Source: Microbacterium sp. LWO12-1.2 (GTDB taxonomy: Bacteria > Actinomycetota > Actinomycetes > Actinomycetales > Microbacteriaceae). Taken from it: 64,000 bases of DNA. The stretch spans positions 3,038,001-3,102,000 of the forward strand of contig NZ_JBEGII010000001.1 of assembly GCF_040675875.1 (NCBI RefSeq), in the 5' to 3' direction. The notes under the pieces were generated by a model. The model was not told the origin of the DNA. It saw only the letters and a list, made by a program, of their open reading frames with translations, and did not search any database. Position 1 is the stretch's first letter. The number at the start of each line of letters is the position of its first letter. The translations under genes were made by a program, and so were the position numbers. Of this stretch, positions 46,762 to 59,183 are shown piece after piece.

Positions 46762-47676
46762 ATGTTCGACAGTCCGCTCTCCGCCTCGGCGTACGAGATC
46801 CTCGGCGTGGAAGCCACGGTCGACGACGCCGAGCTGCGGCGCGCGTATCGGCTTCGCCTCCGGCAGACGCACCCCGACACGGGTGGCGACGCCGCCGTGT
46901 TCATCCAGGTGCAGCGCGCCTGGGAGCTGGTCGGCACCCCCGACGACCGCGCGGCCTACGACCGGCGCACCGGCGTGGCCACCGACACCACGTGGAGCGG
47001 ATGGCGGCCGCCGACCGCGCGCGCCGACACCCGACCCCGCGCCCGCTCCTACGGCCACCCCGGCGGCTGGCGGCGCGAGCGCTACCTGGTGCTCATCCGC
47101 GAGTGGGCCGGCCGCGGCGTCGAGGTCCCCGACCCGTACGACCCCGCCCTGGTGCGCTCGGCACCGCGCGAGCTGCGTCGCATGCTGGCTGACGCTCTGG
47201 CCGAGGAGTCCACCGCCCGCACGGTCTCGGATCTCGGCATGGGGTTCACGGTGTGGCACGACGTGGATGCGGGCAAGGATGCCGACGACAAGCTCGACCA
47301 CGTGGTGCTGAGCCCTTCCGGCCTGTACGGAATCATGTCCGAGGACTTCGGCGGCGTCGTGGGCTTCCGTCGCGGCGAGATCACCGGCCCGAGCCTCGGT
47401 ACGCGCGCCCCGGTCACCGGCACGCTCTCGCGCATGCGCGCCGTGGCCCGCGCCGCCCGCGTGCGCTTCGGCGGCGCGATCATCGTGCTCCCCGACGACG
47501 ACCTCGCCCAGGCAGTGACCCCGCTCGGCACCAGCCGCGGTGTACCCGTCGTCGTGGTGCGCCGCAGCGCGCTGGCGATGGTGCTGCGCCAGGGCGTTCC
47601 CGGCGCGCGGGCCATCGGCGGCAACGAGCTCTTCGACGTGCGCACCCGGCTGCAGCAGACCGTCCGATTCGTCTGA
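46762..47676 (+). CDS. J-domain protein with NERD-like C-terminal domain
   Basis: 304 aa. The first 70 residues are a J domain (AYEILGVEATVDDAELRRAY) with the HPDTGGD motif that stimulates DnaK. After a linker, residues 160-240 read KLDHVVLSPSGLYGIMSEDF, the pattern of NERD nuclease-related domains (D-x-V-x-x-x-x-G-x-x-x-I). The tail is beta/alpha with VVVVRRSALAMVLRQ. There is no zinc finger, so it is not DnaJ. It may link a chaperone to DNA or nuclease work. The NERD assignment is inference from motif. Confidence 0.75.
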   Translation: MFDSPLSASAYEILGVEATVDDAELRRAYRLRLRQTHPDTGGDAAVFIQVQRAWELVGTPDDRAAYDRRTGVATDTTWSGWRPPTARADTRPRARSYGHPGGWRRERYLVLIREWAGRGVEVPDPYDPALVRSAPRELRRMLADALAEESTARTVSDLGMGFTVWHDVDAGKDADDKLDHVVLSPSGLYGIMSEDFGGVVGFRRGEITGPSLGTRAPVTGTLSRMRAVARAARVRFGGAIIVLPDDDLAQAVTPLGTSRGVPVVVVRRSALAMVLRQGVPGARAIGGNELFDVRTRLQQTVRFV

Positions 47677-47849
47677 CCGTCTCTCGCTTCCCCGGTCGCG
47701 GCACCTACGCCTGCGCCACCGCCGCCCCGGACCCGACCCCTGAACCGGGGACAGACGTCAAGGTGAACACCTCCCTATACTCCGAGATGACACCGCCGCC
47801 ACCGCGACGAAGAGCAACGTCGCTGGCGCCAGCATCCGGGAGAGATCGC

Positions 47850-48389
47850 ATGACGGGCACCCGCAGACTCGTACCGCTCTCGGGTGGCGCACTGATCTCA
47901 CTGGGCGGGCTGACGATCGCGGCAAGTGTTGCGCTCTACCTCATGTCTTACTTCTGGGCGTTTTTCGCGATCCAGGGATGCGGCTTCTTGCTTCTCCTCG
48001 TGGGATCGGGCCTCTCCTTCCGGTGGTTTTCGCAACCACGAACGTGGATACTCCTCGTCGCAGGGAGTAGTGGGTGGTTCATCTGCTGGTCGTGGCCCTT
48101 CACTTTCGGGCTGCTGATCCCCATCCCGCTCGTCTTCTGGGCAGCGCTATCCTCGATCGCATACCTGGTCGGCACCTTTTTCGCCGTCGAGAGCGGGAAG
48201 GCCTCGCAGTGGGCGGCGCTCAGCGTGCTGACGATCGGTTCCTTCGCCTCCACCATCGTCATGGCTTCAGATCGCCTCTATGCGTCGGACTGGACCTATG
48301 TCCCGGTGGGCCTCGGTGCGGCTGCGGCCGGCATCTTCCTCGGTGTGGGATCGCTGCGTTCGCAGCCAACAGCTCTCGCTTCCCCCTAG
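47850..48389 (+). CDS. Multi-spanning membrane protein, unknown
   Basis: 179 aa from the ATG at 47850 with GGGAGAG upstream. An in-frame ATG at 47787 has a poor site. Six predicted helices: SGGALISLGGLTIAASVALY, then tryptophan-rich segments (FWAFFAIQG, WFICWSWPFTFGLL). There is no known family. Base composition is a little lower in GC than its neighbours. The stop codon overlaps that of the convergent caspase-like gene. Confidence 0.65.
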   Translation: MTGTRRLVPLSGGALISLGGLTIAASVALYLMSYFWAFFAIQGCGFLLLLVGSGLSFRWFSQPRTWILLVAGSSGWFICWSWPFTFGLLIPIPLVFWAALSSIAYLVGTFFAVESGKASQWAALSVLTIGSFASTIVMASDRLYASDWTYVPVGLGAAAAGIFLGVGSLRSQPTALASP

Positions 48390-49786
48390 ATGATCGCCGG
48401 GATGTGCACCGTCGGATCACCGAGCAGCACCACGGCCTGACGATCCCATGCGGTCAGTCGCAGTCGCACCATGCCGCGCGCCGCCGCATCCGGATCGGCG
48501 GTGCCTGGGTCGTCGTACTTCGCCGCCTGATCAGCCCAGTCGCGCAGGATGGGCCCGATCCCGGCGTAGTAGTCGGCGAGGATCAGCCCGAGCGGTCGCC
48601 CCGAATGGAGGTGATCGGTCAGCCCCGCCACGATGTCGTGCGTGAATCGCTGCTTCGTCGCAGGGTCCCGCAGCGTGACGTCGAAGGTCGGCTCGACGTG
48701 GGCGAGCACGCCCCGCACCGGCTTCTCCCTGGCCAGCAGCTGCGCCGGGCCGGGAGCGACGATCGATCCTTGCAGCGCCACCGCGTCCACGATCGACCGC
48801 GCCATCGTCCCCTCCTCGAGCAGGTCGCTGTAGCTGCTCTGCCCGTCCGCACCGGCCGAGCAGCAGGCCTGCGAGAACCAGACCGCGCCGGACGGCATCT
48901 CGGCCACCAGGTCGTCGATCGGGAGCGTGTTCTTGTCGCGATCCACAGGCAGCCCGAGGGTGCGGGTCATCTCGGCCTGATCGAGCGGCGTGGCGCCGTG
49001 GCTCGAAGTCACGACCAGCGTCGGGCGGGCGCGCAAGGCCTTCAGCAACAGGTCGCCGGTGGCGTCGGCATCCTTCAGGCTCTGCACCTTCATGCGCGGG
49101 TCGGTGAGATCCGCGACCAGCGGCTCGGCGAGGGCTGTCTTCATGAGCCGGGTGATGTCGCGGGATCCGTGGTCGACCGCCCAGACCGCCGCCGTTCCAC
49201 CGGCAGGTGGCGCCGCATCCCATCCGTCAGGTCCATCCAGCATCGCGTCGACGTAGCGCGCGAAGTCGTCTCCGGCGAACGGCAGGCGCCCGACCGCGTG
49301 GCGCAGCGCGAAGGCGTACTGCACCTCCCACGGGATCGCCGAGGGAGGAGCCGCGATCAGCACGTAACGCGGCAGCCTCTCGATCCCGGTCCCGAACGAC
49401 GTGAGGCCGATCCGCAGATCGCTCGCACGTCCGTCCGGGTAGTAGCGCCGCACCCTGGTGGCGCCGTGCGCGGGTCGCCAGCGCAGCACGACCGTGTTCT
49501 TCCTGGCAGAGAGCAGGCGACGCAGCGAGGGGGCGAGGTCGGCGCCGGTCACCTTCGCCTTCGTCCACTCGCCGGCATCGTCATCCGGAACGAGGATGCC
49601 GTAGCCGACGTCCTCATGCGCCCACTGCGTCGGGTCCGCCGGTGCCTCCAGATCGAGCGGTTCCTGCGCCCCTCCGAGCGGCGCCGCCCCCCACGCGAGT
49701 CCCCCCTCGGCGATGCGCCCGCTCGCACGCTTCCCCGCCCACGCATCGATCTGGATGCTGCGCGGGAGAGCCACGTGGGAGGTCAT
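48386..49786 (-). CDS. Caspase/gingipain-like (clan CD) protease-fold protein
   Basis: 466 aa from the ATG at 49784-49786, overlapping the CHAT gene stop (ATGA). The His-Cys dyad of clan CD is visible: His263 in VVTSSHGATPLD and Cys308 or Cys309 in VWFSQACCSAG. Before it lies an N-terminal region of about 190 residues with IAAPPSAIPWEVQ, then AVWAVDHGSRDITRLMK. The C-terminal 130 residues include VVLLGDPTVHIP, the typical end of gingipain/CHAT-like domains. It is last of four coupled genes. Substrate and activator are unknown. A toxin-like or signalling protease is the best reading. Confidence 0.75.
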   Translation of the reverse strand: MTSHVALPRSIQIDAWAGKRASGRIAEGGLAWGAAPLGGAQEPLDLEAPADPTQWAHEDVGYGILVPDDDAGEWTKAKVTGADLAPSLRRLLSARKNTVVLRWRPAHGATRVRRYYPDGRASDLRIGLTSFGTGIERLPRYVLIAAPPSAIPWEVQYAFALRHAVGRLPFAGDDFARYVDAMLDGPDGWDAAPPAGGTAAVWAVDHGSRDITRLMKTALAEPLVADLTDPRMKVQSLKDADATGDLLLKALRARPTLVVTSSHGATPLDQAEMTRTLGLPVDRDKNTLPIDDLVAEMPSGAVWFSQACCSAGADGQSSYSDLLEEGTMARSIVDAVALQGSIVAPGPAQLLAREKPVRGVLAHVEPTFDVTLRDPATKQRFTHDIVAGLTDHLHSGRPLGLILADYYAGIGPILRDWADQAAKYDDPGTADPDAAARGMVRLRLTAWDRQAVVLLGDPTVHIPAII

Positions 49787-51081
49787 GCCTCCACCTCGCT
49801 GAGCGCCTTCCGCAGTCGCGTGATCTCCTTCGTCACGGTCACGATGATCTCCTTCGGCGTCGACCGCGGATCCAGGGTCTTCGCGAACAGCTCGTACTCC
49901 GCCAGCCGATCCCGCAGGGCCGCGCGCTCTCGCGCGTGCGAGTCGACTGCCGCCGGCGTGTACACGAGCAGGTGTTCCTGCAGCACGTACAGCACCGGAT
50001 CCGACCAGCCGTCCTCGCGAGCAGGAGCACCCCCTGCAGCAGCCAGGCGCGGCGCGGTCAACGCCGGCGCCCACTCGATCCGGTGATGCGAAGAGCCGTC
50101 GGCGGCCGCCGCGGCGGCGACCATGGCCAGCAGCTCCGGATACACCCGCGCGCAGAACGCATCGGTCGCCGAGAGGTCGACGACGCGGCGCATGCCGATG
50201 ACGGCGGGAACGCCGCTGTTGACGAGCTCGTGCGCGATCGAGGGTGCGGCCGCGGCGTTCGCGGTCTCGCACGCCGCCAGCACGACGAGCCAGGGGTCCT
50301 CGCTCTTCAGCGCTGCCGCCACCATGTCGACCGACACCGCGACCCTGCCCGTCTTCGCCCGTGACAGGAAGTCCCTGCGGGTGGCGAACGAGAGCCCCAT
50401 GACACCGGGCGCTGCATAGCCGCCGTGGCACAGCACATGGAGCAGGTGAGGTCGGGCGGCCGCGATCTGCCGAACGACCGCGACCGGATCGGTGGCGATC
50501 GTCTCGACCGTGATCCCCGGATCGGCGAGCTCCTTCACACGCGCAGCGACCGCCGGATCGCCGGTGATCACATGCACGCCCACCTGCAGCCCCTGAACGC
50601 GCGCCGCGACGATCGCGGTCGCGAGCGCATCGAGCTGCGGCACGCCGTCACGCTCGGCGGCCGAGAGCACCGCGACGATGCGGAACGGTGGCTCGAAGGT
50701 CCGCTGACCGACCTCGTGCACACGGCGGGCGACGCGCGCGATCGGCCAGCGTGCGTCGAGAGCGACGAAGCCGCGCGGTTCGACGTACAACTGCTCCCAC
50801 GGCAGCGCGTCGGCGGCCGGCGACGCGAGGCGGAAGTAGATGGTCGAGGGCTCGGTGTCGGCATCCACTCCGAGGGCCTGATCGATCGCCTGCTTCGTCG
50901 GACGGTGCCGGCCGAGCAGCCGGGCCAGTTCCTCACCCCTCGCCTTCGCGTCGGCTCCCTGCAGTGGCTTGATGACCACTCGTCTGGGCACATCCATGTC
51001 TTCGATCTCCACCGACGATTTGAACAACGAGACCATCGCCGAGGCCTTGTCCACCGGGTTGAACGCGACGATCATGCCCAT
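49783..51081 (-). CDS. CHAT-domain protease
   Basis: 432 aa. Catalytic His219 is in LLHVLCHGGY and Cys271 in WLVVLAACETANA, the signature of CHAT (caspase HetF associated with TPRs) domains. HELVNSGVPAVIGMRRVV (about 284-301) follows as usual. The N-terminal part has LPWEQLYVEPRGFVALD (about 93-109), typical just before the protease core. The C-terminal 50 residues form a coiled coil. No TPRs are present. Start overlaps the upstream stop by one base (TGATG). Confidence 0.85.
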   Translation of the reverse strand: MGMIVAFNPVDKASAMVSLFKSSVEIEDMDVPRRVVIKPLQGADAKARGEELARLLGRHRPTKQAIDQALGVDADTEPSTIYFRLASPAADALPWEQLYVEPRGFVALDARWPIARVARRVHEVGQRTFEPPFRIVAVLSAAERDGVPQLDALATAIVAARVQGLQVGVHVITGDPAVAARVKELADPGITVETIATDPVAVVRQIAAARPHLLHVLCHGGYAAPGVMGLSFATRRDFLSRAKTGRVAVSVDMVAAALKSEDPWLVVLAACETANAAAAPSIAHELVNSGVPAVIGMRRVVDLSATDAFCARVYPELLAMVAAAAAADGSSHHRIEWAPALTAPRLAAAGGAPAREDGWSDPVLYVLQEHLLVYTPAAVDSHARERAALRDRLAEYELFAKTLDPRSTPKEIIVTVTKEITRLRKALSEVEA

Positions 51082-52529
51082 CAGGTGCCTCCGAGGTGCC
51101 GCTGCACCAGGCTCTGGATGTCGGCGAGCGCCTGGCCGGTCGCAGTCTCGTGCGTCTGCGCGGCCGGGGTCTCCTCCGACGATGCGCGGGAGATCATCTC
51201 AGCCTGACGCGTCTCGATGAACCGCGATGCCGACGCCGCCCAGCGCGGCACCTCCACGAGCTCCTCGTAGGATCCGGACCCTGCCAGTTCCGGGAGCGAG
51301 GTCGAGGGCGGCGGAAGGGGCGGTGGCATCCGGGAGGCGGATGCCGCCGGCACCCCAGGAAGCAGGATCGCCCGCAGCAGCGGCGCCTCCGCCCCGGCCT
51401 GGTCGGGCTCAGCAGTCGGTGCGTCCAGCGCATCGACGATCGCCTCAGGTTGCAGGTAACCGAACCACGACGGATCGCTGGGCAGCTGCCGCTCCTCCCT
51501 GCTCGCAAGGAACGAATGGATGTCGGCGAGCGCCGTGGCGTCGGGGTCCTGACGGATCGAGCTGAACAGGGTCGGCCCCGGCCGCAGCTGCCCGAGGCGG
51601 TCGGCCACCATCCGCGCGCCCACGTCGACACGACGCGGCTCCGGGGAGGCGACCGACACAGTCGAGGCCCCGAGCATGTCGGCCAGGAACCAGAGGTCGT
51701 CCGCATCGACGGAACCGCGGAGGTCGACCGCATCCGGTCCCGGATGCCCCGCAACGGCGAGCATCGAGCGCTCGGCGCTGGCGATCCCGACCGCGGCCAC
51801 GTGCACCGCCGAGACGGCGCGGTCGGCGAGCTCTCCGGTGATCCACTCCATCCAGAGCAACCGAGGATCCTCATCCGACTCGAGGGAACGCAGGCCCGGC
51901 ACCGAGCGCGGACCCCGCGTGATGCGCACGGCCGTCGTCGGCGCATGTGCCGGATCATGGAGTGTGACGGATGCCGGCAGCCGCTCGTCCCGCAGAAGTA
52001 CAGCGGCGCTCGCATCCGGGAAGAGCTCGATCGCGACGCCGGGGATGCGCTCGTCGAGAGCCTGCGCCAGCGCCCGCGCGTGCGCAGCACCCCACCGTGC
52101 ACGCGGCGGCTGGGTCACGATCACCGCGATGCGATGCATCCGCCCCAGCCGCACCGACACCGGCAGATGGTCAGGAACACGGATGACGGGGATGCGGATG
52201 CGTTCACCCAGCTGCTCCCAGGGCGCTGCGCCGAGGTAACCGTAGGGCGGTTCGAGACGCAGCCACAGCGCCGATTCGGCCCGCAGCTCCGCCCCCATCG
52301 TGTCCTCCACCGCGCGGCTCAGCGCCGACGGCATCCGCAGGCGCCCCTGCACGTCGGCCGAGACATCCAGGCCGAAGTCCTCCAGGCGATCTGTGCGCTC
52401 CCAGAAGGTCTGCTCCTGCCCATCGATGAACCCGGCGAGCCGCGACCGCACCTGCGGGGTACGCTCGCTCAGGTCGAGTGCGACGTGGAGTGCCGCGAGC
52501 TTCCATTTCCACATGATCTGGTCGGCCAC
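51081..52529 (-). CDS. Degenerate CHAT-like protein
   Basis: 482 aa, GTG start. APWEQLGERIRIPVIRV (about 104-120) mirrors the LPWEQL segment of the CHAT neighbour, and the order of strands is similar (VSAVHVAAVGIASAERSMLA in place of the His motif, GASTVSVASPEP in place of the Cys motif). Neither catalytic residue is present, so it is probably a non-catalytic paralogue. The C-terminal 90 residues are Pro/Ala-rich then helical. It is second of four genes and likely a scaffold or sensor. The homology is by eye and needs profile comparison. Confidence 0.65.
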   Translation of the reverse strand: MADQIMWKWKLAALHVALDLSERTPQVRSRLAGFIDGQEQTFWERTDRLEDFGLDVSADVQGRLRMPSALSRAVEDTMGAELRAESALWLRLEPPYGYLGAAPWEQLGERIRIPVIRVPDHLPVSVRLGRMHRIAVIVTQPPRARWGAAHARALAQALDERIPGVAIELFPDASAAVLLRDERLPASVTLHDPAHAPTTAVRITRGPRSVPGLRSLESDEDPRLLWMEWITGELADRAVSAVHVAAVGIASAERSMLAVAGHPGPDAVDLRGSVDADDLWFLADMLGASTVSVASPEPRRVDVGARMVADRLGQLRPGPTLFSSIRQDPDATALADIHSFLASREERQLPSDPSWFGYLQPEAIVDALDAPTAEPDQAGAEAPLLRAILLPGVPAASASRMPPPLPPPSTSLPELAGSGSYEELVEVPRWAASASRFIETRQAEMISRASSEETPAAQTHETATGQALADIQSLVQRHLGGT

Positions 52530-52539
52530 GGCTGTTGCC

Positions 52540-53853
52540 TCATCTCGCGGTAAGCGTGTGCAGCAGCCACCAGGTGATCGGCTTGTTCACGTCGCCGTGG
52601 CCGCCGATGGCTTTCTCCCCGTCGACCACGCCTCCCCCGTCGACCGCCACGATCCCGCCGTCGAGCTCATACCGTTCCCCTGCGGCGAGCGCGGGCCTCG
52701 TGGCGAACGCGACCCCCTTCGGCCCGTAGCCGCCGAGCGCACCGTAGGTGTCGGTATCGCCGATGGCCGCCGCGTTGAACTCACCCAGGTTGTCGCCGCG
52801 GACGAAGAGGTGGAACACCTCGTGCAGGGGAAAGTCGTGGCGTGAGAAGGTGTGCATGATCGGACGCTCGACCCGCTCCGGCACGTTCGCGTATCCCCCC
52901 TTCCGGCCGGTCTCGGCCACCTTCTTCGCGAAGCACCAGCGGTTCACGGCGGGCTGCAGCAGGAGAAGCGAATGCACGGATCTGCTGAGCTTCGTCCGAG
53001 CGATCGCGGAGAGCAGCACCCGGGCGCCGTAGGAATGGCCGATGAGGTGCAACCGCGCCGTGCTCTCGAGCAGGTCGGCCAGCACAGGCCCGACGCCGTG
53101 TCTGCCGACCAGGCCGGCGCGGGACTTGATCTTCCACACGCTCGCCAAGCGGAGGATCGTGCGTGGGTCGAAGCCACCCCCGGCGATCACGAATCGCTCC
53201 CCATCGCTGTCGGGTGCGTTCTCGTCGATGACCCCGGCGATGCCGTCATCGTCATACGGTTCGACGTTGCCGTCGAGCGCTGCCCACGCCATCAGGATCT
53301 GATTCAGATCGGGCGGTCCCATCGATGTCTCGTCCCGATCCTTCCAGAGACCGGACACGAGACCCGCCGCCTGACGAGCCTCGCTCTCATCGAGCAGCTC
53401 GACACCGTCGAGGAGCTCCGTCAGCGCGGCGCGGTTCTCGGCAGGGAGCGAGTCGCCGACCTCGTCGAGGAGTACCTCGATACTCCCCTCAGCCATATCG
53501 TCGGCCCCCTCGGTCGCCGCGATCACGGGCCCTTCCTCAGACTGCTTCACGAACCATGTCGATGGCCAGATGATGCCGATCAGCACGGGGCGGTAGTCAT
53601 CGGGCACCGGGATCCCGAGCTCCTCGCGCTGAGCGATGTAGCCCTGGATGAACTTCGTGTACTCCCTCTTCGCATCGGCGAACACGTTGTTCCAGCCGTG
53701 CGAGAACACGTACACGTCGGTCGCACTCCGCGCGCGCTCGACAGCCATCGCCGCGGTCTGTCGACTGAGCAACGTGCCGTCCTTGCTGAACCGCAGCAGA
53801 AACAGGTCGACGTTGCTGCCATCAGGCAGCTCGATCTGGACAGGACCGATCAT
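52540..53853 (-). CDS. Alpha/beta hydrolase of the CHAT operon
   Basis: 437 aa from the ATG at 53851-53853. The upstream frame is unrelated. VYVFSHGWNN (about 47-56, oxyanion side) and the nucleophile elbow LIGHSYGARVLL with Ser274 define a lipase/esterase-like fold of DUF900 type. An insertion of about 120 acidic residues (110-230) lies between. A conserved His is likely in DNLGEF or HGDVNKPITWWLLH near the end. First gene of the operon. Possible effector acting on lipids, by analogy only. Confidence 0.78.
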   Translation of the reverse strand: MIGPVQIELPDGSNVDLFLLRFSKDGTLLSRQTAAMAVERARSATDVYVFSHGWNNVFADAKREYTKFIQGYIAQREELGIPVPDDYRPVLIGIIWPSTWFVKQSEEGPVIAATEGADDMAEGSIEVLLDEVGDSLPAENRAALTELLDGVELLDESEARQAAGLVSGLWKDRDETSMGPPDLNQILMAWAALDGNVEPYDDDGIAGVIDENAPDSDGERFVIAGGGFDPRTILRLASVWKIKSRAGLVGRHGVGPVLADLLESTARLHLIGHSYGARVLLSAIARTKLSRSVHSLLLLQPAVNRWCFAKKVAETGRKGGYANVPERVERPIMHTFSRHDFPLHEVFHLFVRGDNLGEFNAAAIGDTDTYGALGGYGPKGVAFATRPALAAGERYELDGGIVAVDGGGVVDGEKAIGGHGDVNKPITWWLLHTLTAR

Positions 53854-53996
53854 GGCAATCCCCGTTTCTGAGGCGCGTGACCCCAGCGTCACACCCCAAT
53901 GCGACAAGTGTCGACCCTCTGGGGGCCGCTGTCCAGACCATGTTTTGGGCGCACGAGAAGCAGCACGTCGACGGGCACCCGCGATGGGGGTTGACG

Positions 53997-54031
53997 TCCC
54001 CCAGGATGCCCAGTCCCCTACACCTGGGGGA
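53997..54031. promoter_or_regulatory. Inverted repeat between the CHAT operon and lacI-type gene
   Basis: TCCCCCAGG (53997-54005) and CCTGGGGGA (54023-54031) are exact inverses with a 17-base spacer. It lies in the 270-bp gap shared by two divergent operons and could bind a regulator of either one. Confidence 0.4.
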
Positions 54032-54045
54032 CCTCGGCAACCCCA

Positions 54046-54074
54046 TTGACTTCCGCTATCAAACCGGTTTACGC
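54046..54074 (+). promoter_or_regulatory. Promoter and LacI-type operator of the GH130 operon
   Basis: TTGACT (54046-54051) and TTACGC (54069-54074) are 17 bp apart. Within the spacer lies AAACCGGTTT (54061-54070), a perfect CG-centred palindrome of the LacI/GalR operator type. The repressor is the first gene of the operon, which fits autoregulation. Confidence 0.6.
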
Positions 54075-54123: not shown

Positions 54124-55155
54124 ATGAGCCGCACGACGATCGCCGATGTCGCTCGCGAGGCCGGCGTGACCAAGGCCACGGTCTCGCACGCGCTGAGCGG
54201 CAATCGCCCCATCTCGGAAGAGACAAGGGCGAAGGTGCTGGCTGCGGCCGCGAAGCTGAACTGGGTGCCGAGTCAGAGCGCCAGAGCCCTCGCCACCCGC
54301 CGTGCCAACGCGGTCGCCGTCGTACTCGCTCGAGATCCCGAGGTCATCGCCAACGACTCGTTCTTCCCCGCCTTCATCGCCGGGGTCGAGTCGGTGCTGT
54401 CCGAGACCGAGACCGCGCTGATCCTGCAGGTCGTGCCCGACAGGGATGCCGAGGAGCGCGCCTACCGCGCACTCACCCATGGCCGCGCCGACGGTGCCCT
54501 GCTGCTCGACCTGCGCGACGACGACTGGCGCGTGCCGTTCCTCGACGATCTCGCTCTTCCGACCGTGCTGGTCGGTGCATACGAGCAGCCCACCGCGTTC
54601 TCGTGCGTCCGCACCGATGACGCCGCGCCGGTCCGCGAGATCATCGCGCACCTGCGTGCCGCGGGCCATGAACGAATCGCCCACGTCTCCGGCCCCCTCG
54701 ACTACGTGCACTCCCGCGCACGCGCCGACGCCTACATCGACACGATCGGCGACGACACTCTGCTGCGCGAGGGCGACTTCACTGCCGCCAGCGGTCGCGC
54801 CCTCACCGAGGAGCTGCTCGCCCTCCCCCAGCGTCCGACCGCCATCGTCTACTCGAACGACACCATGGCGATCGCCGGCCTCTCGTTCGCCCGCTCGCAG
54901 GGCCTCGTCATCCCCGACGACCTCGCGATCTCCGGATTCGACGACGATCACCTGTCGGCGCATCTGTCCCCGGCGCTCACCAGCGTCTCATCCGACCCCG
55001 CGGCCCGAGGCCGCGCCGCCGCCCGCCTGCTGCGGGCAGACATCCTCGGAGCGCACCCGCGCACCGAGATCGTCGACTGCAACGTCGTGCACTTCCGCGA
55101 GAGCACGGCCGCACCGTCGGCCGCATCACCCACTGTGTCGAGGAGGACACCATGA
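54124..55155 (+). CDS. LacI-family transcriptional regulator
   Basis: 343 aa from the ATG at 54124 behind GAGGAGGT. HTH TTIADVAREAGVTKATVSHA (4-23) with the hinge PSQSARALATRRANAVAVVL, then a periplasmic-binding-protein-like sensor domain ending ISGFDDDHLSAHLSPALTSV. Its last codons overlap the binding-protein start (ATGA), so repressor and transporter are made from one transcript. Presumably senses the imported glycan. Confidence 0.92.
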   Translation: MSRTTIADVAREAGVTKATVSHALSGNRPISEETRAKVLAAAAKLNWVPSQSARALATRRANAVAVVLARDPEVIANDSFFPAFIAGVESVLSETETALILQVVPDRDAEERAYRALTHGRADGALLLDLRDDDWRVPFLDDLALPTVLVGAYEQPTAFSCVRTDDAAPVREIIAHLRAAGHERIAHVSGPLDYVHSRARADAYIDTIGDDTLLREGDFTAASGRALTEELLALPQRPTAIVYSNDTMAIAGLSFARSQGLVIPDDLAISGFDDDHLSAHLSPALTSVSSDPAARGRAAARLLRADILGAHPRTEIVDCNVVHFRESTAAPSAASPTVSRRTP

Positions 55156-56423
55156 AGAAGATCCGTGCAGCCGCGCTCATCGGCGCCGTCGCGCTCGTCG
55201 CCACCGGATGCTCCGCCGGAGGCGGTGGAGAAGGTGACACCGGTGCCGCCGAAGGCACCGGCCCCATCAACGTCTGGCTCTCCAACAACGAGCAGGAGGT
55301 CGCCTGGGGCACCGCCGTCGTCGAGGCGTGGAACGCCGAGCACCCCGACGAGAAGGTGACCGCGCAGGAGATCCCCGCCGGCTCCTCATCGGAGGAGGCC
55401 ATCACCGCCGCCATCACCGCCGGCACCGCACCGTGCCTGGTCTACAACGTGGCTCCGGCCGCCGTCTCCGGCTGGGTCAAGCAGGGCGGGCTCGTCGACC
55501 TCAGCACCTTCGAGGGCGGCAGCGACTACATCACCGAACGCAGCGGCTCGGTCGACGCCTACGCGACAGACAAGAGCTTCTACCAGCTGCCGTGGAAGTC
55601 GAACCCCGTCATGGTCATGTACAACAAGGCCCTGTTCGAGGCGGCGGGCATCGACCCCGAAGACCCGCAGATGAACACCTACGACGCGTTCCTCGAGGGC
55701 TCCCGCGCCATCGTCGAGTCCGGCGTGCAGAGCGCGATCTGGCCGGCACCGACCAGCGAGTTCTACCAGCCCTGGTTCGACTTCTACCCGCTCTACCTGG
55801 CCGAGACCGACGGCACCATGCTCGTGGAAGATGGAAAGTCGACGTTCGACTCGGATGCCGGCCGCGAGGTCGCCGAGTTCTGGAAGACGTTCTACGACGA
55901 GAAGCTCGCGCCGAACGAAGCATCGACGGACGACGCGATGTCGGCCGGCACCACTGCCATGCAGCTCGCCGGCCCCTGGGCGATCCCGTCGTACGCCGAC
56001 ACGGTCGACGTCGGCTTCATGCCGGTGCCGACGAGTGACGGCCGCGAGAACCCGATCACGTTCGCGGACTCCAAGAGCGTCTCGATGTTCACGGCCTGCG
56101 AGAACCAGGCCACGGCGTGGGAGTTCCTGCAGTTCTCGACGAGCGTCGAGAGCGACGGCGAACTGCTCGAGCAGACCGGACAGATGCCGATGCGCACCGA
56201 CCTGACCGAGACCTACGGCGACTACTTCGACGCGAACCCGAACTACGTCGCGTTCGCGGAGCAGGCCGAGGCGACCGCCGATGTGCCCAGCATCCCCAAC
56301 TCGGTCGAAGCCTGGCAGGCCTTCCGCGACGAGTACTCCGCCGCGGTGATCTTCGGCAAGAACTCGATCGACGACTTCCTCGCGAACGCGGCGGAGAAGA
56401 TCGACAAGCTCGTCGCCGAGTGA
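55152..56423 (+). CDS. Sugar ABC transporter substrate-binding lipoprotein
   Basis: 423 aa. Lipobox VATGC (Cys about 20), then a Gly-rich linker. Family-1 solute-binding protein: YQLPWKSNPVMVMYNKALFE near residue 145 and TTAMQLAGPWAIPSYAD near 270. Second gene of the LacI-controlled operon. Ligand inferred as a beta-mannoside-type oligosaccharide because GH130 is encoded downstream. Confidence 0.9.
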   Translation: MKKIRAAALIGAVALVATGCSAGGGGEGDTGAAEGTGPINVWLSNNEQEVAWGTAVVEAWNAEHPDEKVTAQEIPAGSSSEEAITAAITAGTAPCLVYNVAPAAVSGWVKQGGLVDLSTFEGGSDYITERSGSVDAYATDKSFYQLPWKSNPVMVMYNKALFEAAGIDPEDPQMNTYDAFLEGSRAIVESGVQSAIWPAPTSEFYQPWFDFYPLYLAETDGTMLVEDGKSTFDSDAGREVAEFWKTFYDEKLAPNEASTDDAMSAGTTAMQLAGPWAIPSYADTVDVGFMPVPTSDGRENPITFADSKSVSMFTACENQATAWEFLQFSTSVESDGELLEQTGQMPMRTDLTETYGDYFDANPNYVAFAEQAEATADVPSIPNSVEAWQAFRDEYSAAVIFGKNSIDDFLANAAEKIDKLVAE

Positions 56424-56427
56424 CGCC

Positions 56428-57324
56428 GTGACCGACAACCGGCGGTTGCGCACCCGATGGCTGGGTGCGCAACCGATCGGCGGCCTCTTCACGCTGCCGT
56501 ACTTCGTGTTCGTGATCGCGATCTTCGCCTACCCGCTCGCGTTCGCGGTCTACATCGCCTTCCACGACTACTTCTTCACGGCACCCAACGTCGAGGTCGA
56601 CCGCCCATTCGTGGGCTTCGACAACTTCGTCACGGTGCTCACGGACCCGCGGGTGCTGGACGCGTTCCGCAACACCCTCGTGTTCCTCGTGATCAACGTG
56701 CCGCTCACCGCGGTGCTGTCTCTCGTGCTCGCCGCCGCGCTGAACACCGGCATCCGCTGGGTCGCCGCGTACCGCGTGGCGTTCTACGTGCCGTACCTGA
56801 CTGCGAGCGTCTCGCTCGTGGGCGTGTGGATGCTGCTGTTCTCGGGCAACGGCCTGATCAACACCGTTCTCGGTCCACTGGCTCCCGACCCCTCGTGGCT
56901 CGTGAACAGCGGACTGGCGATGCCGATGATCGCGCTGTACGTGACCTGGAAGCAGCTGGGGTTCTACATCCTGCTGTACCTGGCCGCGCTGCAGAACGTG
57001 CCCAAGGAGCTCTACGAGTCGGCCGAGACCGACGGCGCAGGCGCCCTCAAGCGCTTCCTGCACGTCACCATCCCCGGGGTGCGCAACGCGACCACGCTCG
57101 TGCTGATCCTCTCGATCATCACCGGAGCCAATCTCTTCACCGAGCCGTACCTGCTCACCAACGGCGGCGGCCCCGATGGCGCCTCCTCCACCCCGGTGCT
57201 GCTCATCTACCAGCTGGGCATCCAGCAGCAGAACCCCGACACGGCCGCGGCGATCGGCATGATCCTCGTGATCCTGGTCGGGATGCTGTCGCTGGCCGCC
57301 AACCGCGCAACCAGGGAGCGATGA
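56428..57324 (+). CDS. Sugar ABC transporter permease (MalF type)
   Basis: 298 aa, GTG start 4 bp after the binding-protein stop. Six helices. The EAA loop is PKELYESAETDGAGALKRFL (about 192-211), and LLTNGGPDGASSTPVL-like text precedes the last helix. No ATPase gene is present, so it should share a general ATPase. Confidence 0.9.
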   Translation: MTDNRRLRTRWLGAQPIGGLFTLPYFVFVIAIFAYPLAFAVYIAFHDYFFTAPNVEVDRPFVGFDNFVTVLTDPRVLDAFRNTLVFLVINVPLTAVLSLVLAAALNTGIRWVAAYRVAFYVPYLTASVSLVGVWMLLFSGNGLINTVLGPLAPDPSWLVNSGLAMPMIALYVTWKQLGFYILLYLAALQNVPKELYESAETDGAGALKRFLHVTIPGVRNATTLVLILSIITGANLFTEPYLLTNGGGPDGASSTPVLLIYQLGIQQQNPDTAAAIGMILVILVGMLSLAANRATRER

Positions 57325-58163
57325 TGAAACGCCGACGTTCACTGCCCCGCATCCTGAGCATCATCCTGCTCACGGTCGCGGCGATCGGGTTCGCCTTCCC
57401 GTTCTACTTCATGCTGGTCGGAGCGTTCCAGGAGAACCCGACGAACTCGCCGAGCGAACTGCTGCCCACCGGCGGCTGGACGGTCGACAACTTCATCGCG
57501 ATCGATTCGCGCATCGACCTGATGGGCTCGCTGCTCAACTCGCTGATCTTCACGGCGGGCGTCCTGCTGGGCACGGTCGTGTTCGGACTGCTGGCCGGCT
57601 ATGCGATCGCCCGCCTCGACTTCCGCGGACGCGGCGTGGTGTGGGTGCTCATGCTGCTCGTGCAGATGGTGCCGTTCCAGCTGCTGATGATCCCGCTCTA
57701 CGTGCAGATCACCCGCAACTACGGCCTGGGCGACTCGTACATGGGCATGATCCTGCCGTTCCTGATCAACACGACGGCGGTGTTCATCTTCGTGCAGTTC
57801 TTCAAGGCCCTGCCCGTGGAGATCTTCGAGGCCGCCCGCATCGACGGGGCGGGCGAGATCCGTCTGCTCACCTCGGTGGCCATCCCGCTGATCCGTCCCG
57901 TGCTGGTGACGGTGGTGCTGGTCACCTTCATCGGCCCCTGGAACGAGTTCCTGTGGCCGTTCCTGATCACGAAGGATGCGACGCTGCAACCGCTCGCCGT
58001 CTCCCTCGCGAACTACATCTCCAACGTCGCGCAGTCCACCGCGAACCCCAACGGGGCGATCCTCGCGGGTGCCACAGCGCTCGCGTTCCCCGTCGTCATC
58101 CTGTTCGTCGTCTTCCAGCGCTTCTTCACCGCCACCGACCTCGGCGCGGCCGTCAAAGGCTGA
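57324..58163 (+). CDS. Sugar ABC transporter permease (MalG type)
   Basis: 279 aa from the second of two adjacent ATG codons, which is better spaced from GGGAG. The first at 57321 overlaps the upstream stop (ATGA). Six helices. The EAA loop is PVEIFEAARIDGAGEIRLLT (about 168-187). The C-terminus DLGAAVKG is the CUT1 ending. Confidence 0.9.
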   Translation: MKRRRSLPRILSIILLTVAAIGFAFPFYFMLVGAFQENPTNSPSELLPTGGWTVDNFIAIDSRIDLMGSLLNSLIFTAGVLLGTVVFGLLAGYAIARLDFRGRGVVWVLMLLVQMVPFQLLMIPLYVQITRNYGLGDSYMGMILPFLINTTAVFIFVQFFKALPVEIFEAARIDGAGEIRLLTSVAIPLIRPVLVTVVLVTFIGPWNEFLWPFLITKDATLQPLAVSLANYISNVAQSTANPNGAILAGATALAFPVVILFVVFQRFFTATDLGAAVKG

Positions 58164-58193
58164 TCGCACACCGTCTAGCCAGAAAGGGCATCC

Positions 58194-59183
58194 ATGTTCA
58201 CCGGAGCATCCTTCCCCCTCGGACCGTTCACGCCCCACGAGGGCAACCCGATCCTGCGCCCCCGTGGCGCGAGCTGGGAGTCCGCGAACCTCTACAACCC
58301 CGCCGCGATCGTCGACGGCGACGAGGTCGTGCTCCTCTTCCGCGCCCACGCGGAGGACATCATCTCGCACATCGGCATCGCCCGATCGCGGGACGGCGTC
58401 ACCTTCACCCGCGAGGATGCACCGATCCTCTCCCCCTCGGAGGACTACGAGCGGTTCGGCTGCGAAGACCCGCGCATCGCCCTGATCGACGGCACCTACT
58501 ACCTCACCTACACGGGCTGGGACCGCCGCAGCGCACAGCTGTGCCTGGCCACCTCGACCGACCTGCGCACCTGGACCAAGCACGGTCCGCTGTTCGACGA
58601 CTTCGACACGTTCAAGACCATGGATCCGCGCGGGTTCAACTGGTCGAAGGCCGGGGTCATCGTGCCGCAGCAGATGCACGGCAAATGGTGGATGTACTTC
58701 GGAGAGGGCGCGATCTACTGGGCCACCAGCGACGACCTCATCCACTGGACGCCGGGCACCCCCGACACCGAGCCGATGTACACACCGACGCAGGGCACCT
58801 GGGACGAGGCCCTGGTCGAGATCGGCACCTCACCCGTCGTGACCGACAACGGGCTCCTGCTCTTCCTCACCAACGGCGCCACCCGCGTGGTGCACGACGA
58901 CGGCACCGTAGACGTCGACTACCGCTGCGGACAGATCGCGATCGATCCGGATGAGCCCACCAGGGTGATCGCCCGGATGCAGGAGCCGTGGCTGCGCCCG
59001 CAGAGCTTCGAGGACATGCACGGTCTGGTCTCCAACGTGACCTTCGTGGAGGGTCTCGTGAAGTTCCAGGACAAGTGGTTCGCGTACTACGGGCAGTCCG
59101 ACACGACCCTGGCCGTCGCCATCCACGATCCGGCCGAGCCGTGGGGTCGCGCGCTGCGCGAGTCCGGTTCCTCCGGCGACTGA
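58194..59183 (+). CDS. GH130-type mannoside phosphorylase or glycosidase
   Basis: 329 aa, five-bladed propeller family GH130/GH43. NLYNPAAIVDGDEVVLLFRA (about 32-51), the catalytic-region FGCEDPRIA (about 88-96) and the late KWFAYYGQSD (about 300-309) are characteristic of GH130. No signal peptide, so it acts on imported sugar in the cytosol, typically phosphorolysis of beta-1,4- or beta-1,2-mannosides. Exact linkage cannot be read. Confidence 0.85.
   Translation: MFTGASFPLGPFTPHEGNPILRPRGASWESANLYNPAAIVDGDEVVLLFRAHAEDIISHIGIARSRDGVTFTREDAPILSPSEDYERFGCEDPRIALIDGTYYLTYTGWDRRSAQLCLATSTDLRTWTKHGPLFDDFDTFKTMDPRGFNWSKAGVIVPQQMHGKWWMYFGEGAIYWATSDDLIHWTPGTPDTEPMYTPTQGTWDEALVEIGTSPVVTDNGLLLFLTNGATRVVHDDGTVDVDYRCGQIAIDPDEPTRVIARMQEPWLRPQSFEDMHGLVSNVTFVEGLVKFQDKWFAYYGQSDTTLAVAIHDPAEPWGRALRESGSSGD

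Follow-up and report, generated by a model that had tools for sequence, protein, structure and literature searches.

A conserved four-gene cassette of a serine hydrolase, a CHAT/pseudo-CHAT pair, and a gingipain-like protease in Microbacterium sp. LWO12-1.2

Closest described systems and the four genes

In the portion of Kaur et al. (2020, PMC7159879) that treats them, caspase-type VMAP systems are always found with a neighboring alpha/beta hydrolase gene, and the pairing of a hydrolase with a clan CD protease is, on that account, already known in kind. Here we describe a four-gene cassette from Microbacterium sp. LWO12-1.2, located in a stretch of 64,000 nucleotides (contig NZ_JBEGII010000001.1, positions 3,038,001 to 3,102,000) that is referred to as the window. 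The genes are labeled A, B, C, and D in their order of transcription on the minus strand (53853-48386). The VMAP MoxR-vWA systems, as far as the same portion of that paper describes them, resemble the cassette in placing a clan CD protease beside an alpha/beta hydrolase and in having inactive enzymes among their components. Unlike them, the cassette has neither MoxR nor vWA among its four genes, which stand alone, and three of its products belong to clan CD, namely the gingipain-like D together with the CHAT protein C and its pseudo-CHAT partner B. In the sections of PMC12799240 on Canu, pro-nucleases are activated by a protease and have gating insertions with conserved glycines; they are encoded in a likewise small operon of a protease, a partner, and an enzyme activated by proteolysis. 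The Canu effector is a nuclease of the metallo-beta-lactamase fold and its protease is a MALT1-like caspase, whereas the cassette has a serine hydrolase, a CHAT protease, and a C25-like protease, and cleavage is predicted. By sequence, the solved structure closest to C is that of the SAVED-CHAT protein of type III CRISPR systems (8tl0, 1.6e-7; PMC11417357, in the part that deals with this protein). Unlike it, C has no SAVED match in Pfam, and no CRISPR gene is present among the four. TPR-CHAT (Csx29, Craspase) and separase have CHAT/separase-type clan CD folds, which the models of B and D match; unlike Csx29/Craspase, the cassette has no TPR match in any of its four proteins (Pfam) and no gRAMP/Cas7-11 partner. 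According to the initial annotation of this DNA, no described system is known to have this exact four-part set. That holds for the set as a whole in the open-license PubMed Central literature that was searched, which yielded no description of it, although the supplementary data of Kaur et al. may list some loci; it does not hold for the components, hydrolase-caspase pairs being described in PMC7159879.

The genes and their principal features are as follows.

52540-53853, minus strand: gene A, alpha/beta hydrolase, 437 amino acids, start ATG (open reading frame [ORF] and Pfam)
53128-53562, minus strand: insertion of about 145 residues in A (98-242), from the WP strand to the nucleophile elbow
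53032-53034, minus strand: nucleophile Ser274 of A, in GHSYG
52834-52836, minus strand: triad residue Asp340 of A
52597-52599, minus strand: triad residue His419 of A
Residues 52-54 of A: HGW motif
51081-52529, minus strand: gene B, pseudo-CHAT protein, 482 amino acids, start GTG (structure and profile)
Residues ~429-480 of B: C-terminal helices
49783-51081, minus strand: gene C, CHAT protease, 432 amino acids, start ATG (PF12770 match)
50425-50427, minus strand: His219 of C
50269-50271, minus strand: Cys271 of C
48386-49786, minus strand: gene D, gingipain-like (C25-fold) clan CD cysteine protease, 466 amino acids, start ATG
48998-49000, minus strand: His263 of D
48863-48865, minus strand: Cys308 of D

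The packing of the four minus-strand genes was as initially annotated, and the ORF list agrees: A and B are 10 bp apart, B and C overlap in TGATG, and C and D overlap in ATGA. The A protein matches alpha/beta hydrolase families and scored 20.1 bits against DUF900, slightly below the Pfam cut-off of 20.5. Its description as a lipase-like hydrolase with Ser274 in GHSYG can be extended to a complete Ser-Asp-His triad, with Ser274, Asp340, and His419, as well as His52 and Trp54, kept in 42/42 aligned rows; the triad is also invariant in a wider alignment of 12 rows. Over the 42 rows, segment 97-243, which covers the insertion, has a mean length of 146.8 (standard deviation 6.5, range 136-164), and in the wider alignment the segment preceding the nucleophile is 129-163 residues long. 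Residues 171-224 are acidic (D/E 0.21, K/R 0.05), weakly conserved, and variable in length, and this stretch is closed by a conserved Ala-Gly at 224-225 (Ala in 41/42 rows, Gly in 38/42). From these sequence features, the insertion is a candidate gate or lid, and the combination of a variable acidic stretch with Ala-Gly is a lead toward Canu-like gating.

Proteins B and C form a pair of which one member looks active and the other does not. C is a CHAT protein (PF12770, 5.3e-13, 49.5 bits, cut-off 24) with no other Pfam match at E <= 1 besides a weak one to C25, and the PADLOC SAVED_CHAT match spans residues 205-356, which is the CHAT part. The dyad reported earlier, His219 and Cys271, was found in 39/39 aligned rows at each position, and C appears to be an active CHAT protease. 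B gave no Pfam match at E <= 1, and 0/48 B rows, including that of the window, matched at E <= 0.01; despite this silence, both the predicted structure and the profile identify a CHAT fold. Profile alignment placed Val247 and Pro296 of B opposite the His219 and Cys271 columns of C, in line with the earlier view of one CHAT paralogue without either residue. The cysteine column has Cys in 1 of the 48 B rows and Pro in 36, and no row has both His and Cys. On its sequence, B is a conserved pseudo-protease, although some rows retain the histidine. The two middle proteins are thus CHAT related, C by PF12770 and B by fold and profile, a relationship on which the initial annotation had made its proposal depend. 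A second, stronger CHAT match (93.1 bits, C1:3430766-3431437) lies in a 957-amino-acid open frame of the same genome, outside the window and far from the operon.

D had been called caspase-like. Its assignment to clan CD, with His263 and the Cys308-Cys309 pair, stands, and the caspase label does not: among known folds the predicted structure comes nearest to gingipain, of peptidase family C25, rather than caspase C14, and none of the four proteins has a C14 match at E <= 1 in Pfam. No Pfam family matched D at E <= 1, PF01364 included, and 0/56 D rows, with that of the window among them, matched at E <= 0.01. Cys308 is present in 56/56 rows and His263 and Cys309 in 55/56 each, the lone exception at both of the latter being L055, a draft copy in which A is also broken (loci are cited by L numbers). 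Cys308 is therefore the invariant one of the two cysteines, and we take it to fit a QAC-type motif; a weak profile alignment of D with C pairs Cys309. With the gingipains RgpB and Kgp, D shares the predicted C25 catalytic fold and the conserved His and Cys, at an identity of ~12% and without a Pfam C25 match. Unlike them, D is the operon partner of CHAT proteins and apparently has no hydrophobic N terminus, the maximum of a simple hydropathy scan lying at residue 332. D is probably cytosolic. Searches of PDB sequences with profiles of A, B, and D yielded no convincing relative. Structure prediction covered B and D, and absence from the fold lists was not counted as evidence.

Conservation, accessory position, and mobility

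A pattern scan derived from the D alignment, covering one genome per species in 84,980 species, found 62 D loci; relatives without the two scanned motifs can be missed by it. Four profiles were run on all ORFs of these loci to sort them into classes. The order A-B-C-D was present at 45/62 loci. Thirty-eight of these are clean, three (L007, L034, L047) were oddly sorted by stop-to-stop ends and are in order by gene calls, and four (L011, L028, L055, L062) have one broken ORF in a draft assembly. Complete sets occur in four phyla, Actinomycetota, Pseudomonadota, Chloroflexota (L034), and Gemmatimonadota (L063). The possibility that the order was found only in this strain, which the initial annotation had raised as grounds for abandoning the idea of a system, is rejected by these numbers. 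Seven other loci are cut or fragmentary (L026, L064, L066), contain D alone (L045), or are rearranged (L054, L058, L061).

The spacing of the genes is conserved along with their order. Median gaps were 9 bp for A-B (42 loci), -4 for B-C (42), and -4 for C-D (41). The flanks gave 642 proteins, in which a single family reached at most 5 loci; recurrent flanks are by eye ordinary regulators, transporters, or the shared flanks of related species. The neighborhood comparison that had been suggested earlier delimits a set with near-zero gaps and no conserved flanking family. Distances for A, B, C, and D correlated at 0.73-0.81 (40 loci), and 0/2000 permutations were as high. Such co-divergence fits common descent of the unit, with shared species history still contained in the correlations. 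These results, together with the fusions and partner swaps described below, give good support to a conserved system that combines several proteases with a hydrolase.

A tree of D (59 rows, quick method) clustered the phyla, not cleanly, with alpha- and betaproteobacteria intermixed and the Gemmatimonadota row nested in a Pseudomonadota clade (support 99). The L054 row of this tree is a 612-amino-acid D-like neighbor, the 937-amino-acid A-D fusion of that locus having been removed by the length filter, and its long branch is to be ignored. The D of Mycetocola does not adjoin that of the window, and Mycetocola is presumed to belong to the window's own family, Microbacteriaceae, from the identical scores of L048 and of L004, a locus in a genome of that family. 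D is rare, occurring in 2/249 genomes of the family and in 3/396 genomes of the phylum (one match partial), with the genome of the window counted in both.

The cassette sits in a segment that differs between relatives.

47678-54060: accessory insertion, ~6.4 kb, approximate ends, containing the cassette and a 179-amino-acid gene

The segment is bordered by a DnaJ-domain gene, which ends at 47676, and by a LacI-type regulator gene (~54124-55155). These two genes adjoin each other, with no cassette between them, in three of four regions from relatives: L108, L109, and L106, where ~140 bp separate them. We therefore regard the ~6.4 kb as an accessory insertion within the genus. The fourth region (L107) has no LacI match. 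Matches to A, B, C, or D were absent from all four regions. The 179-amino-acid gene (47850-48389) is convergent with D, has no Pfam match, and is unmatched in the four regions; its G+C content is 0.63, lower than the 0.70 of the cassette. The window genes flanking the cassette that were scanned were DnaJ, LacI, solute-binding protein, GH130, and UPF0029 genes and one without a match. Beside the insertion lies an ordinary-looking sugar-use operon (54124-59183) with LacI, a solute-binding protein, two permeases, and a GH130-type phosphorylase, and this operon is present in three of the four regions of relatives.

The cassette is also carried on plasmids. D was found on 6 of 72,556 plasmid records, and three of the six were inspected. 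Intact A-B-C-D sets are present on the conjugative plasmid pBb323S2c of Bradyrhizobium barranii and on plasmid p2 of Gemmobacter fulvus, and an A-D pair is present on a conjugative plasmid of Sinorhizobium terangae.

A candidate protease-gated module and its alternatives

We favor, with about even confidence, the reading that the cassette is a mobile, self-contained conflict module acting in abortive infection or programmed death, with proteolysis as its switch and hydrolase A as its output. A protease-gated effector module is proposed because it fits the pairing of one hydrolase family with proteases that can be exchanged, the fusions, the presence of a dead CHAT partner, and a distribution that is accessory, patchy, and plasmid-borne. 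In such a module, B and C would form the initiating unit, C as the active CHAT protease and B, much like a pseudo-caspase, as its dead partner with a holding or sensing role. The gingipain-like protease D would form an executing pair with A. The trigger would most likely be infection by a phage or another element, upon which D, C, or both would cut A, probably in the long acidic insertion, with the order of events and the site both being provisional. SAVED-CHAT feeds an onward protease cascade, a precedent for a CHAT protein acting on further proteases. Freed A might then hydrolyze an ester, most likely in a membrane lipid, and the cell would be stopped or killed. A lipid substrate is proposed because hydrolysis of membrane lipids is the role given, in the relevant part of PMC8195603, to alpha/beta hydrolase effectors fused to death-like domains. 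A role in defense is what we infer for the cassette. The initial annotation had proposed the same, and of its proposal the conserved module is borne out, with defense still inferred and matches among neighboring genes scattered.

A more specific and more tentative proposal, which we think somewhat doubtful, is a bacterial death cascade with an animal-like layout, in which three clan CD proteins, a CHAT initiator with its pseudo-CHAT partner and a gingipain-like executioner, act on a pro-hydrolase effector that the executioner frees. Under it, the A family would be a general protease-gated effector that has become coupled to subtilases as well as to C25-like, C14, and CHAT proteases. The CHAT initiator and pseudo-CHAT partner have a parallel in caspase-8 and its inactive paralogue.

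A number of observations weigh against the conflict-module reading. The Pfam scan of the four proteins showed no nucleoside triphosphatase (NTPase), nucleotide cyclase, or obvious sensor, which leaves the trigger unexplained. A protease cut site within the insertion of A is a guess from its variability, and His is found at the catalytic histidine column of B in 14/48 rows. Five of the 62 loci have A and D without B-C (L030, L037, L044, L056, L059), and another five have B-C-D without A (L038, L039, L043, L057, L065), which means that strict interdependence of all four can be set aside. Nothing obvious replaces A in L038 and L039, the contig of the latter stopping after D, and no recognized protease lies beside the distant A homologue of Rhodococcus rhodochrous (L116). 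Relatives were absent from viral contigs and from 50,697 phage records. The Pfam families of neighboring genes belong here as well: CHAT and Peptidase_C14 were each found twice in 129 neighbors, no family occurred more than twice, and most were metabolic.

These 129 neighbors were scanned, without a control set, from a list of 176 proteins (<=2 genes per side, 110-900 amino acids), in which L046 and L053 were skipped as their flanks copy those of L060. Some short proteins were left out, as were the neighbors of L025, L026, L045, L055-L059, L061, L062, L065, L066, and others. Because the conflict-like loci L045, L057, L058, and L059 are among these, the scan leans against a defense reading. At E <= 1e-10, 44 PADLOC families were matched, each in 1-2 proteins; among the best 25 of the 44 were mad3 (2 proteins) and mad6, PD-T4-6, WYL, IetA, and MkoA (1 each). 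With a control set lacking, the scan neither supports nor excludes a defense-island setting. The mostly metabolic neighbors, together with the sugar-uptake operon that adjoins the cassette in the window, would suit a regulated peptide- or lipid-turnover module for stress or nutrient housekeeping, in which cellular proteins would be the targets of the proteases and A would hydrolyze an ester or peptide product. We judge this improbable, as a conflict module agrees better with the patchy occurrence of D in family and phylum, the empty site, the plasmid copies, the partner swaps, and the presence of a dead CHAT paralogue.

The loci with missing parts show how the pieces are exchanged. On the D tree, A-D-only loci pair with complete loci in three cases (L044/L041, support 89; L037/L014, 92; L030/L032, 95), and B-C has therefore probably been lost, or gained, as a unit more than once. 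In L043 and L065, proteins of 348 and 331 amino acids replace A ahead of B-C-D; the former is papain-like by Pfam and the latter a near copy by eye. In L057 (11415-13114), D is followed by a 285-amino-acid protein without a Pfam match and then, with a 4-bp overlap, by an Endonuclease_NS protein (DNA/RNA non-specific endonuclease), so that this locus may be a variant cassette with a nuclease. The existence of B-C-D loci without A is one of two points in favor of reverse control, in which A, as an esterase or thioesterase, would turn on the proteases by taking off an acyl group, and the proteases would themselves be the killing enzymes. The other is that A homologues pair with several unrelated proteases, as a general activator might. 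We consider reverse control very unlikely, given that three of the five loci without A carry another protease or nuclease gene, which suits an effector slot, and that Canu runs from protease to effector in the sections of PMC12799240 cited above.

Fusions and homologues of A outside the cassette extend the association with proteases. L054 encodes A and D as one 937-amino-acid protein, and L025 encodes a C14 caspase domain, hydrophobic stretches (by eye), and A in one protein of 1064 amino acids. In the Chloroflexales loci L058 and L059, the genes found near A-D encode a CHAT protein, a member of the clostripain family, or a TPR protein whose NB-ARC match is below threshold. A homologues were found on 26 plasmid records, six of which also have D, and 7 of the remaining 20 were inspected. 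In 6 of these 7 neighborhoods without a close D the A homologue adjoins a protease gene, in three arrangements. Four (L114, L118, L119, L120) have an S8 peptidase 9-12 bp upstream; L114 and L118 were checked with Pfam and the others are as annotated, and three of the four are from Rhizobiaceae and so are not independent. A subtilase with an A-like hydrolase on rhizobial and Rhodococcus plasmids is possibly a second, simpler protease-hydrolase system. In Nostoc (L115), the A homologue is found with C25 and then two CHAT proteins (as annotated). On a Planktothrix plasmid (L117, 7286-9823), a CHAT-nSTAND1 protein is directly downstream of the A-like hydrolase, in a layout that may be called inflammasome-like by analogy.

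Occasionally, D or the A-D fusion adjoins VMAP-C genes. The L045 run consists of D, an LCAT-like lipase, a C14-VMAP-C protein, and an AAA ATPase (bpMoxR below cut-off), with a 1799-amino-acid GAF/response-regulator protein that has a C14 match below cut-off. The L054 fusion has a TPR-CHAT protein, a CHAT-VMAP-C protein, and an AAA ATPase with a bpMoxR match below cut-off in its vicinity. Both loci put parts of the cassette in a conflict context. In neither was a vWA match reported, the large partner proteins included, and we therefore term L045 and L054 VMAP-C loci and not complete ternary systems. These loci, and the constant hydrolase neighbor of caspase-type VMAP systems in the cited portion of PMC7159879, would be explained if the cassette were the effector-and-protease arm of the VMAP (MoxR-vWA) network, now standing alone, with its NTPase switch elsewhere or lost. 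We consider this unlikely. VMAP-C, the one component of the three that was searched for genome-wide, had no match in the genome of the window; the same search was positive in 7/10 cassette-bearing genomes. The 13 VMAP-C neighborhoods from those genomes contained no relative of A, B, C, or D at E <= 0.1, and the recurrent neighbors of the cassette include no NTPase. Membership of the window cassette in a VMAP system was rejected on two of these results, the genome having no VMAP-C match and the 13 neighborhoods no A-D relatives, although the surroundings of L045 and L054 point to a link.

If the conflict-module reading is correct, the cassette would represent an unannotated proteolytic module that crosses phyla, with a probably cytosolic family of gingipain fold (D) that is unmatched in Pfam. 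It would bring with it a conserved pair of active and dead CHAT proteins (B-C) and a hydrolase family (A) that occurs together with proteases of four kinds. Protease-activated effectors would be extended to serine hydrolases, and the four genes would offer a compact system for direct tests of regulation by a dead protease, cleavage by an executioner, and release of an effector.

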